DNA of 64,000 nt, from assembly GCF_037081715.1 (NCBI RefSeq), contig NZ_JAZDDH010000001.1, positions 1,612,001-1,676,000 of the forward strand, read 5' to 3'. Both the position numbers and the translations under genes were made by a program. Within the stretch, counting starts at the first letter, position 1; every line of letters starts with the position of its first letter. Positions 28,144 to 32,183 of this stretch are shown piece after piece. Source of the stretch: Halalkalicoccus sp. CG83 (GTDB lineage Archaea > Halobacteriota > Halobacteria > Halobacteriales > Halalkalicoccaceae). The notes below the pieces were generated by a model. That model was not told the DNA's origin. It saw nothing but the letters and a program-made list of their open reading frames with translations, and did not search any database.

Positions 28144-28227
28144 GGTGGGGTGGCAGAGCGGACCATTGCGCCTGCCTTGAGAGCAGGTGGCCGAGAGGCC
28201 TCATGGGTTCAAATCCCATCCCCACCG
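28144..28227 (+). tRNA. tRNA-Ser (TGA)
   Basis: 84-nt class II tRNA. The acceptor GGTGGGG (28144-28150) pairs with CCCCACC (28220-28226), discriminator G. The anticodon stem CCTGC/GCAGG closes CTTGAGA, anticodon TGA. The variable arm contains GGCCGAGAGGCC. The T arm is ATGGG-TTCAAAT-CCCAT. Degenerate look-alikes of its 3' end occur at about 28328 and 30030. Confidence 0.95.
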
Positions 28228-28232
28228 TAAGA

Positions 28233-28256
28233 GCGCGCCGCACTCACGCGGCGCGC
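28233..28256. terminator. hairpin downstream of tRNA-Ser
   Basis: GCGCGCCGC (28233-28241) and GCGGCGCGC (28248-28256) form perfect 9-bp arms with a 6-nt loop, five bases after the tRNA. It is followed by a short GATTTCG. It may act in tRNA 3' processing or termination; archaeal terminators usually need only a T run, so the role is uncertain. Confidence 0.45.
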
Positions 28257-28327
28257 GATTTCGTGACGGTTGGATTTGAAGCAGGGAGAGCACAGGCTCC
28301 CAAGCGAAGCGAGCAGGTCCGTCTTCG

Positions 28328-28470
28328 TGTGATTCGGATCCCATGCCCGCCGCTTTTCGGCAACGGCGACGTACTCACGACCGTAGTAGTCCGCGCGCCC
28401 CGCCGACTCCGCGTGATCGCTGTCCAACCGCGGATCACGGAACCGCTCGTCTCGTCGGCGTTCCGAGCGG
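28328..28470 (+). repeat. degenerate direct repeat, copy A (tRNA-3'-end-like sequence plus aminotransferase 5' remnant)
   Basis: From about 28328 the sequence GATTCGGATCCCATGCCCGCCG resembles the last 24 nt of tRNA-Ser (17 of 24 by my count). It then runs about 110 bases parallel to 30048-30160: CGGCAACGGCGACG against CGGCAACGACGCCG, CGCCGACTCCGCGTG against CGCCGACTCTGCATG, CCGCGGATCACGG against CCGCGGATCACCG. In frame it reads IAVQPRITEPLVSS, matching the start of the aminotransferase (MTTGRPRITERVAAS). The ATG has become GTG and the rest of the gene is absent. Confidence 0.65.
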
Positions 28471-28528
28471 AACGGCATTCCAGGAGCCGGGACGTATCGG
28501 ATTCCAGCCTCCCGACCCCGGATACCGG

Positions 28529-29836
28529 CTACTTGTCGGGCTCGGGACCCAGGCCGGGGCGCTCTGGCGGTGCGCTTCCCTCGAACGACGGCGATCGACT
28601 TCGTCCGCGGTCGGCATGGAGGAACGAGATGCCGCCTGCATGATCGTCCGAACGGGCTCCGTAGATACCCCCGAGCGTGAATCCGCGTTCACGGACGGCG
28701 GTCCAGAACGAGTACCCGTCGGGGTTGTAGAAGTACAACTCCTCGGGGTCCGTCTCGTCGGTAACGTCGTACACCCGGACGCCACCGTTGTACCACGACG
28801 TGTGGATCCGGTTCTGCGTCACGTCGAAGTTGTGTGACGTCCGAAGGCCGACGTTGACGTCCGGTGGCGAGATGAACCCGACCTGCTCTACGTCGTCCCA
28901 GTCGCTCGTGTCGAAGATCCGGATGCCGCCGTACTGCTCGGTGTCGGGATCCGCCTCCAGGCGGTTCGGGAACTTCTCGTCGCCGACGAACGTGAGACCG
29001 CCGTCGGGCGACGGCTGGACGTAGTGGGCGTTCCCATCGCCGGCATAGTACCGTTCTAGTGGGAAGGGATCCGGCTGCGGCGTGTCCGCCTCGGGTGCGT
29101 CGCCGAACTGAGCGACCAGCTCGGGATCAGTCGGGTCGCTCACGTCCGCGACGACGACGCCTGCATCCCAGTACACCTGATAGAGGAGGTCGTCTTGGAC
29201 GTAGACGTCGTGATTCGGGCTGACCCCCCCGGCCGCAAATTCGGGGAAATCGTCCGCGAGTCGGTACTCGCCGATCTTCTCGGGGTCCGTCGGGTCACTC
29301 ACGTCGACGATATCCGTGCGCGCCTCGCTGAACGTGTTCTCATCCGACTCGTTGATCGTGAGGTAGGCATATCCGTCCTTCAGGAAGGCGTTGTGGACAT
29401 GATGGGCGTCGTGGAAGGCCAGCTCTTCGGGATCCGTGGGGTCGCTTACGTCGACGGTCGTGATCCCCGTTCCGCCGTTGTGGGCCATCACGGCGAGGTC
29501 GTCCTCGACCTTCACATCGAGAACGCCGCCGACCTCGCCCTCGTCGTCGCCGCCGATCTCATCAGGCTCCGACGCCTCGATATCCGCGACCAGTTCCGGT
29601 CGATTCGGATTACGCCAGTCGACGATCCCCATCCCGTCACCGGTCGCCACGTAGGCGTGGGTCTCCTGTGCGACGACCTCCATCGCGCCATCCACCGCCT
29701 GCTCGCTGAACAGCCGGAGCTCGTCGGGGTCCTGCTGTGGCGGTCGTGCGCTTACCGTCCCGATGCTTCCGAGCGCTCCGGTGGCGCCCAGTACTTTGAG
29801 TACCGTTCGTCGACTCGGTGTTGGATCGATTACCAT
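28529..29836 (-). CDS. Tat-exported LVIVD-repeat beta-propeller protein (435 aa)
   Basis: 435 residues. Twin-arginine signal 'SRRTVLKVLGATGALGSIGTVSARP' with an AxA-like cleavage site. Repeated propeller strands are obvious: 'GMGIVDWRNPNRPELVADI', 'ITTVDVSDPTDPEELAFH', 'DIVDVSDPTDPEKIGEY', 'VVADVSDPTDPELVAQF', 'GGVRVYDVTDETDPEELYF'. His residues recur ('HDAHHVHNAF'). A shorter relative of the gene at 16832. It lies between two degenerate repeats that both resemble the tRNA-Ser 3' end, so it may have arrived by integration. Function unknown. Confidence 0.85.
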   Translation of the reverse strand: MVIDPTPSRRTVLKVLGATGALGSIGTVSARPPQQDPDELRLFSEQAVDGAMEVVAQETHAYVATGDGMGIVDWRNPNRPELVADIEASEPDEIGGDDEGEVGGVLDVKVEDDLAVMAHNGGTGITTVDVSDPTDPEELAFHDAHHVHNAFLKDGYAYLTINESDENTFSEARTDIVDVSDPTDPEKIGEYRLADDFPEFAAGGVSPNHDVYVQDDLLYQVYWDAGVVVADVSDPTDPELVAQFGDAPEADTPQPDPFPLERYYAGDGNAHYVQPSPDGGLTFVGDEKFPNRLEADPDTEQYGGIRIFDTSDWDDVEQVGFISPPDVNVGLRTSHNFDVTQNRIHTSWYNGGVRVYDVTDETDPEELYFYNPDGYSFWTAVRERGFTLGGIYGARSDDHAGGISFLHADRGRSRSPSFEGSAPPERPGLGPEPDK

Positions 29837-29935
29837 GAGTGGTATTCACTCCCTCAGTGTGTTTCGTACAGAAGACCATATATTTGTTTATATTATATAT
29901 CATATAATAAATCATACTTGAGTGATTCTATTAGT
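29837..29935. promoter_or_regulatory. AT-rich divergent control region with palindromes
   Basis: This stretch is strikingly AT-rich compared with its surroundings. It holds TATTATAT (29891-29898) and ATATAATA (29902-29909), perfect 8-bp arms around ATC, and GAGTG (29837-29841)/CACTC (29847-29851) directly before the LVIVD start. It is the presumed promoter/operator of the minus-strand LVIVD gene. Confidence 0.55.
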
Positions 29936-30029
29936 GCCGGAATTGGCTGCAAGCCGTTTGCGGCGAGCGGAAAGCGCTGACGAGCGATTGGGGTCATGGA
30001 ACGGGCGAGCGGACGTGAGCGACGTTCGG

Positions 30030-30165
30030 GGGTTCGAATTCCATTCCTACCGCTTTTTCCGGCAACGACGCCGTGCTCACGAACGTATTAGTTCGCGCCT
30101 CCCGCCGACTCTGCATGACCACTGGACGGCCGCGGATCACCGAGCGTGTCGCCGCCTCGGAACGA
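30030..30165 (+). repeat. degenerate direct repeat, copy B (tRNA-3'-end-like sequence plus aminotransferase 5' end)
   Basis: GGGGTTCGAATTCCATTCCTACCG (30030-30053) matches the last 24 nt of tRNA-Ser at 19 positions by my count and includes a T-loop-like GTTCGAATTCC. The next 110 bases align with copy A at roughly three quarters of positions and run into the intact aminotransferase. Copies A and B bracket the LVIVD gene, about 1.7 kb apart. Confidence 0.6.
30080..30095 (+). promoter_or_regulatory. aminotransferase promoter with palindrome over the TATA box
   Basis: CGAAC-GTATTA-GTTCG: 5-bp arms flanking the TATA-like GTATTA, centred about 27 nt before the ATG at 30115. This is the expected spacing for a leaderless mRNA and an obvious place for a repressor. 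The degenerate copy at 28344 onward has lost most of the symmetry. Confidence 0.5.
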
Positions 30166-31275
30166 TCGGCGATCCGCGTGATGTTCGACATGGCGGAGGC
30201 CCACGACGGCGACCTCGTCAGGCTCGAGGTAGGCGAACCGGACTTCGACACGCCCGAGCACGTCGTCAGGGCGGCGTTCGAGGCCGCCCGCGCGGGCGAG
30301 ACGCACTACACCTCGAACGCGGGGCTGCCGGCGCTTCGCGAGGCGATCGCCGACGCGGACGAGGCGGTCGTTCCCGACGGAGTGACGGTCACGACCGGCG
30401 GGATGGAGGCACTCCACCTCGCGATGCTGACCGTCGTCGATCCCGGCTCGGAGGTGGTGATCCCCGCGCCCGCCTGGCCCAACTACCGGACCCAGACGCG
30501 GCTCGCGGACGGCGTGCCGGTTGAGGTCCCGCTGCCCGAGGAACGAGGGTTCGCGCTCGATCCCGACCCGATGATCGAGGCGATGGGCGGGGACACCGCG
30601 GCGGTCGTCCTGACGAACCCCTCGAATCCCACTGGTAGAGTGTTCGACCCCGAGGCGATCCGCGAGGTGGCCGCGGCGGCAACGGAGCACGGCGCCTACG
30701 TGATCGCGGACGAGGTCTATCGCGGGCTGGTCTACGAGGGAGCGGATCGCGCGATCGCGAGCTACGTCGATGACCCCGACTCCGTCCTCACGGTCGACTC
30801 CTGTTCGAAGCGCTACGCGATGACCGGCTGGCGGGTCGGCTGGCTCGCCGGCCACCCCGACCTGATAAGCGAGGTGAACAAGATCCACGAGAGCACGACC
30901 GCCTGTGCCTCGAGCGTCGCCCAGCACGCCGCGATCGCCGCCATCACCGGCCCACAGGAGCGGACGAGGGCGATGTACGAGGCGTTCGCGGAACGCCGCG
31001 AGTACGTCGTCGAGCGGATCGACGCCATGCCGGTCGTCTCATCGGCCCCGCCGGAGGGGGCGTTCTACGCGTTTCTCGACGTCCGGGCCCTGCCGGGCGA
31101 CACCCTCTCGATCGCGAAACGCCTGCTCCGCGAGCACGGCGTCGTCACCGCGCCCGGGAACGGGTTCGGCGATCCCGGCGCGGGCTACCTCCGCGTGAGC
31201 TTCGCGAACGGGCTCGACCGGCTCGAGGCGGGCTTCGACGGGATCGAGGCGATGGTCCGCGAGGAGGCGACGTAG
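30115..31275 (+). CDS. PLP-dependent aminotransferase class I/II (aspartate aminotransferase-like)
   Basis: 386 residues from the ATG at 30115. Fold type I landmarks: 'LEVGEPDFDTPEHV' at the N terminus, 'TSNAGLPALREAIA', Asn168 in 'LTNPSNPTGRVF', Asp199 in 'VIADEVYRGLVY' and the Schiff-base Lys232 in 'DSCSKRYAMTGWRVGW'. 'GAGYLRVSFAN' near the end carries the substrate-carboxylate Arg. It probably transfers amino groups between aspartate or another amino acid and 2-oxoglutarate. The following amidohydrolase starts on the very next base after its TAG, so the two once formed an operon. Confidence 0.92.
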   Translation: MTTGRPRITERVAASERSAIRVMFDMAEAHDGDLVRLEVGEPDFDTPEHVVRAAFEAARAGETHYTSNAGLPALREAIADADEAVVPDGVTVTTGGMEALHLAMLTVVDPGSEVVIPAPAWPNYRTQTRLADGVPVEVPLPEERGFALDPDPMIEAMGGDTAAVVLTNPSNPTGRVFDPEAIREVAAAATEHGAYVIADEVYRGLVYEGADRAIASYVDDPDSVLTVDSCSKRYAMTGWRVGWLAGHPDLISEVNKIHESTTACASSVAQHAAIAAITGPQERTRAMYEAFAERREYVVERIDAMPVVSSAPPEGAFYAFLDVRALPGDTLSIAKRLLREHGVVTAPGNGFGDPGAGYLRVSFANGLDRLEAGFDGIEAMVREEAT

Positions 31276-32183
31276 GTGGACCTCGCGATCACGAACGCGC
31301 TCGTGTTGACGCTCGACGAGAGCCGACGAGGGCTCGGCATCATCGACGACGGCGCGGTCGGCGTGACTCGCGGCGAGATCGCGTTCGTCGGTCCGACCAC
31401 TGAACTCGACGGGACGAGCGCCGATCGGGTGATCGATGCCACCGGCGCGGCGGTCCTCCCGGGACTCGTCGAATCCGAGCCCGCTACGGTTCCGAGGCTT
31501 CGACGGTCGGGGTCCTCGACGACCGCGGGCTGCTCGACGAACGGCTGATCGCCGTCCACTGTCATGGCGCGACCCCCGAGGAGCGAGCGCGGATCGCCGA
31601 CCGCGGTGCACGGGTGATCGGCTGTCCGAGCTCGATCGCGGCGATCGACGGGATCGTCGGCCCAATTACGGAGTTCCTCGAGGAGGGAACGACGGTCGGA
31701 CTGGGCACCGATCAGGCGCCGGGATCCGGCGGCCACGAGATGCTCCGCGAGCTTCGGACCGCGAGCCTGCTCTCGAAGACCGACCGCGGCGATCCGACGA
31801 GCCTGCCGGCGTGGAAGGCGCTCGATCTCGGCACCGTCGGCGGGGCGCGGGCGCTCGGGCTCGCCGACCGAGTGGGAACGATCGAGGTCGGAAAACGCGC
31901 GAATCTCGCGGTGTTCCCGCTCGATACGCCGTCGGTCGCATCCGCCGTCGGCGAGCCGCTTCACACGGCCGTCCCGAACCTCGTCTACGGCGGTGCGCGC
32001 GCCGAGACCGTCCTCGTCGACGGCCAGCCGGTGTTTCTCGACGGGAAGTTCACCGCCCTCGACGGCCGGGCGATCCTCGAGGAGGCGAACGAGCGCGCCC
32101 GGGCCCTCTTCGGGCGTGCGAGCGAGGACTGGCGCAAAGCGGGTTCGAAGCTCGTCTCGGACGTCGAGGCGGGCTGGCTCTAG
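31276..32183 (+). pseudogene. amidohydrolase (MtaD/SsnA-like deaminase), internally deleted and frameshifted
   Basis: The first frame (GTG 31276 to about 31480) reads the N-terminal strands of a cytosine-deaminase-type amidohydrolase up to 'GAAVLPGLV', where 'NAHTH' should follow. It then runs into a segment that reads, in another frame from about 31484, 'RYGSEASTVGVLDDRGLLDERLIAVHCHGATPEE' and continues through 'VIGCPSSIAAIDG', 'VGLGTDQAPGSGGHEML' to the normal C terminus at 32183. About 130-140 residues including the HxH metal motif are missing, and the junction is out of frame. The protein cannot be a working deaminase. Confidence 0.8.

Follow-up and report, generated by a model that had tools for sequence, protein, structure and literature searches.

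Degenerate tRNA-Ser 3′-end copies around an LVIVD-repeat gene in Halalkalicoccus, and a class of compact modules behind haloarchaeal tRNA genes

INTRODUCTION

In Halalkalicoccus sp. CG83, two worn copies of a tRNA-Ser 3′ end lie between the intact tRNA gene and an aminotransferase gene and bracket a single gene for an LVIVD-repeat protein, which raises the question of how the copies and the gene came to be there. A sequence-only reading of the locus had taken it for what remains after an element integrated at the tRNA, or a block was duplicated, and then decayed. In the present study, we analysed this junction in the window, i.e. the whole stretch of 64 kb of contig C1 from the 3.64 Mb genome (G000), together with its counterparts in relatives and the other tRNA genes of G000. 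The parts of the junction are listed in Table 1.

Table 1 Features of the tRNA-Ser/aminotransferase junction in window coordinates
Feature	Position	Strand	Basis
tRNA-Ser(TGA), intact	28144..28227	+	ARAGORN, Rfam RF00005
Module 1 spacer (tRNA-Ser)	28228..28329	+	Fold, inverted tRNA match, motif position, relatives' spacers
Copy A, degenerate tRNA-Ser T-loop to 3′ end, 17/23	28330..28352	+	Alignment; 22/22 orthologue in G001
A flank, remnant of aminotransferase promoter and first ~9 codons	28353..28441	+	Alignment with B, G001, G006, G004
LVIVD-repeat protein, 435 aa, Tat-like signal	28529..29836	-	Pfam, absence from nine family relatives
AT-rich region (29% G+C) upstream of LVIVD	29837..29935	-	Composition
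Copy B, degenerate tRNA-Ser T-loop to 3′ end, 19/23	30030..30052	+	Alignment
B flank, native aminotransferase promoter and first codons, contiguous with the gene	30053..30143	+	Alignment
Class I/II aminotransferase	30115..31275	+	Pfam PF00155, E 3.5e-67; synteny

RESULTS

Two worn tRNA-Ser copies flank a single gene

Local alignment of the A region (28324–28441) with the B region (30025–30143) gave a score of 102, whereas 300 dinucleotide shuffles averaged 22 and reached at most 33, and a whole-genome BLAST search returned B as the sole match of the A region (E 7.8e-19). These data clearly show that the two tRNA-Ser tail copies proposed from the sequence are real and align well above shuffled sequence. 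Taken by itself, the tRNA-like head of B is significant (0 of 300 shuffles) and that of A is borderline (2 of 300); as the orthologous copy in the congener G001 matches at 22 of 22 bases, we regard A as a true tRNA-Ser copy that has decayed. Behind each head, as had also been proposed, ~90 bp match the promoter and first codons of the aminotransferase, and in A this stretch reflects either an extended repeat on incoming DNA or an older gene duplication. A quartet test for a split of A and B after the species split gave 2, 2 and 1 sites, i.e. few sites that were evenly spread. By inspection, a GAACG...CGTTC inverted repeat precedes copy B; the possibility that the region upstream of B is homologous to module 1 was considered and rejected, as the match did not rise above shuffles (175 of 500).

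The LVIVD open reading frame (Pfam PF08309, E 2.7e-14) is the only plausible gene between tRNA-Ser and B, which confirms the single gene described there, and by inspection its N-terminus is predicted to be Tat-like (SRRTVLKVLG). Its promoter is presumed to sit in the AT-rich region. Homologues were found at 60–66% in other families, and two distant paralogues occur elsewhere in G000 itself; none was found in nine other genomes of the family. Since the gene is missing from these nine relatives and empty sites exist among them (see below), we infer that it was gained in the window lineage, between two repeats. A search for LVIVD on phages found none, and a plasmid source was rejected, as homologues at 55–56% are present in Natrinema and Halorussus plasmids, but without the flanks. 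In G210 (L142, 967–2850), an LVIVD homologue is located downstream of a tRNA-Arg that has at least two tandem copies, and its orientation with respect to the tRNA matches that of the LVIVD gene of the window; in G340 (L141, near 829) a homologue similarly lies near tRNA-Arg 3′-end copies, both homologues being from another family. Among the 29 homologues examined, this association of LVIVD with tRNA-Arg is suggestive only.

Relatives carry empty versions of the junction

The genes upstream of tRNA-Ser are common to all of the relatives compared, and synteny shows that, within the family, the aminotransferase lay next to tRNA-Ser ancestrally. In G006, the aminotransferase directly follows tRNA-Ser with neither a copy nor an LVIVD gene, and in G001 a spacer and one perfect 22-base copy of the tRNA 3′ end precede the aminotransferase, again with no LVIVD gene; the length of the G001 spacer is uncertain, because an N and a C-run within it resemble an assembly fault. 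The comparison thus yielded both a one-copy version, as the sequence-only reading had predicted, and a no-copy version, and these empty sites, together with the absence of LVIVD, support the insertion at this junction in the window lineage. In the sister genus (G007 and G008), further copies lie between tRNA-Ser and the aminotransferase, and no intact aminotransferase follows tRNA-Ser in G002, G003 or G004. The remnant in G004 (L127, from 4902) consists of the promoter and start plus short internal and 3′ pieces.

Several other features of the neighbourhood were noted. In G002 (L125, 2408–5023), ~2.6 kb separate the conserved upstream gene from tRNA-Ser, a stretch that the other relatives lack. 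By inspection, the GGACG/CGTCC loop in the first unit behind tRNA-Ser is inverted between G008 (L086) and G007 (L087). In the window, the amidohydrolase beside the aminotransferase appears to be truncated or split, with open reading frames at 31276–31548 (N-terminal 90 aa) and 31614–32183 (C-terminal 189 aa); the N-terminal part has relatives at the corresponding position in G001, G007 and G008.

The tRNA-Ser unit belongs to a genome-wide class of compact modules

We located the 44 tRNA genes of G000 and scanned the 20 kb downstream of each for a copy of its own last 22 bases. Such a copy, with 19–22 of 22 matches, was found at +87 to +169 for 16 of the 44 genes. Beyond +169, the 20 kb contained just four more copy matches, and no inverted-control matches were obtained in 880 kb. 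Copy A of tRNA-Ser, at +102 with 17 of 23 matches, is a decayed case of these copies, and the tRNA–spacer–A unit belongs to a class of compact modules that occurs across the genome. In G001, a copy was found within 1.4 kb for 15 of 31 tRNAs, and samples of ten tRNAs gave copies at three in G007, four in G031 and two in G032; cross-tRNA controls were low (for the latter three samples, 17 of 752 with the threshold unchanged). In the outgroup G497 there were five matches, each of which falls on a whole copy of the same tRNA nearby.

Because it is also found in G001, has a related spacer in G001, G007 and G008 and belongs to this class, the tRNA–A unit is not a one-off scar. The proposal of an integrated element or duplicated block that then decayed therefore holds as regards a lineage-specific insertion; tRNA–A and A–LVIVD–B are separate events, and tRNA–A is not a decayed long element.

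The anatomy of the class was examined in 39 modules from four genomes. The module is composed of the tRNA gene, a spacer of ~100 bp (74–169 bp, median 98) that has a hairpin on its 5′ side and, in most cases, an inverted T-arm, and an exact copy running from the T-loop start to the acceptor end of the tRNA. The boundaries of the copy are fixed: identity between tRNA and copy is 0.90–1.00 at positions −22 to −2 and is at a background of ~0.3 past a few flanking positions. Most spacers hold an inverted copy of the T-arm of their own tRNA, which scores higher than those of other tRNAs (Wilcoxon p 5e-8), and an Rfam search at seven loci matched tRNAs and no other RNA family. The spacer of module 1 at tRNA-Ser has a strong GC hairpin at ~28233–28255 (fold −21.6 kcal/mol) and an inverted T-arm, GGATTTGAA, at 28272–28280, followed by GCAGGGAG to 28288; its inverted match to the tRNA 3′ end was reached in 1 of 300 shuffles.

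The class is haloarchaea-wide. Among 392 genomes of the order (haloarchaea), 127 contain its motif, GATTYGAAGCAGGGAG, and none matches the reversed control; outside the haloarchaea, the motif was found in none of about 240 genomes from the phylum. In a phylum sample, all 22 genomes that gave a match were haloarchaeal. Of 30 sampled matches, 27 sit 31–201 bp downstream of a tRNA on the same strand. A viral source was rejected, as the 36 matches on viral contigs, all but one with less than 50% G+C, included none with the module architecture.

Modules turn over between congeners and some intervals hold genes

Module presence differs between G000 and G001 at tRNA-Phe, Ser-gga, Gly-ccc and Asn within a shared neighbourhood; at the first three, no precise empty-site alignment was obtained, as the junctions could not be aligned. 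Most spacers at tRNAs common to both genomes are no more alike than non-orthologous ones, the exceptions being Val-gac and Lys-ttt, with Ser-tga at the 95th percentile. Units within tandem arrays are non-identical (61–70% gapped global identity), except in the G001 tRNA-Phe array, which resembles a simple local tandem duplication.

Although most units are gene-free, some intervals contain single genes, i.e. a SnoaL-like gene at Val-tac and a multicopper oxidase gene between two modules at Gly-tcc in G000, and a HEPN-like gene at Val-cac in G001. At tRNA-Arg-ccg of G000 (L315), 11.4 kb extend to a distal copy with 20 of 22 matches, the open reading frame nearest to which encodes a phage integrase N-terminal domain (Phage_int_SAM); this interval is likely to be an integrative element.

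DISCUSSION

The T-loop is a known crossover sublocation for tyrosine recombinases that integrate at tRNA genes (PMC8371274) and, because the fixed left edge of the copies fits integrases using it, T-loop insertion can be proposed for the class. We give about an even chance to the reading that the modules are att-type insertions at the T-loop and that A and B flank one that carried a gene, LVIVD. A tyrosine-recombinase-type integrase would cross over at the T-loop, the insertion would restore the tRNA and leave the displaced 3′ end as a copy, and repeated insertions would accrete in tandem behind the tRNA. In the window lineage, a second insertion, with LVIVD as its putative cargo, would have entered at a relic copy, so that A and B would be its flanking repeats, and the incoming repeat would have reached past the tRNA copy, hence the aminotransferase start in both; archaeal att sites can reach outside the tRNA (PMC8371274). 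As expected for an integrative element, the tRNA and its 3′-end copy form direct repeats and empty sites occur in relatives (G006 and G001). Several observations count against insertion: no integrase gene was found between tRNA-Ser and B and no recombinase was identified for the modules, units of ~100–130 bp would make a very small integrating circle, aminotransferase sequence as in A and B is unusual for an attP, and in the one integrase-bearing interval seen (tRNA-Arg-ccg) no clear inverted T-arm was found before the distal copy. The duplication-like G001 tRNA-Phe array and the region upstream of B, with no demonstrable homology with module 1, count in the same direction.

Block duplication is a possible, though less probable, origin of the A/B repeat. 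Here the relic and the aminotransferase would have been duplicated in tandem, the first aminotransferase would have decayed to its start and LVIVD would have arrived later by an unrelated route. The start remnant at the same place in G004 shows that such a remnant can outlive its gene, and A lies on a long branch, with 13 A-only against 4 B-only changes. However, no further aminotransferase sequence was found in 28442–28640, and this history requires a duplication and a deletion, as well as an independent gain of a gene no more than 90 bp from where the repeat ends.

That the modules are ordinary long integrative elements (proviruses or plasmids) shrunk by deletion is distinctly unlikely. Haloarchaeal elements do leave partial tRNA copies (PMC3119063 and PMC7921747), and the 11.4 kb tRNA-Arg-ccg interval encodes a Phage_int_SAM protein; set against this are the short spacers of the 39 modules, the rarity of intermediate-distance copies within 20 kb and the conserved inner architecture. 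A host RNA feature, i.e. a 3′ trailer terminator or a switch pairing the inverted T-arm with the tRNA 3′ half or the copy, would suit the complementarity specific to the own tRNA and the folding of the last 80 nt, which is better than that of shuffles (mean z −2.55), but is highly improbable, as congeners differ in presence at the same tRNA, most G000/G001 spacers are not conserved beyond the non-orthologous background and more than half of the G000 tRNAs have no module.

Among known systems, the tyrT distal repeats (rtT) of E. coli are near-identical tandem units, confined to a single locus, each starting with a short tRNA 3′ end, whereas the units of module arrays differ from one another and many tRNAs are involved. 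The core of an integron recombination site is GTTRRRY, and such a site was rejected for the modules, as their T-arm copies read GTTCRAA, with C at position 4. The modules might form a haloarchaeal tRNA-anchored cassette system, integron-like with the tRNA as anchor, in which small units ending in an inverted plus direct T-arm recombination site, sometimes with one gene, are added serially; we consider this doubtful. Archaeal integron cassette arrays, as far as the available excerpt describes them (PMC9668308), consist of tandem units, some with one gene, that end in a recombination-like site with inverted arms. The modules may be partly similar to these, most of their units being gene-free; no integron integrase was seen for them and their anchor is a tRNA. 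The likeness to tRNA integrative elements (PMC8371274) lies in the intact tRNA with a 3′ copy; in contrast with these, modules are mostly ~100 bp, lack an integrase, occur at more than one-third of tRNAs and have an inverted T-arm specific to their own tRNA. In Haloferax gibbonsii there are 11 partial tRNAs, several of which lie right beside the full copy (PMC7921747), and the partial tRNAs of Haloquadratum walsbyi are tied to prophages and repeat-mediated deletions (PMC3119063). These are likewise remnants of the same tRNA, noted case by case in the excerpts available and with no common ~100 bp architecture described there.

No systematic description of the compact module was found in the literature, subscription papers being outside the scope of the search, and its novelty is provisional; the recurrent insertion of DNA, sometimes one gene, at tRNAs appears not to have been systematically described before. 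If the modules are recombination products, haloarchaeal tRNA genes would be standing entry points at which DNA builds up one unit at a time, and a testable recombinase would be predicted from the sharp boundary at the T-loop and the inverted arm specific to the own tRNA. This would also explain the partial tRNAs listed in haloarchaeal genome papers and offer single genes, LVIVD among them, a way into chromosomes.
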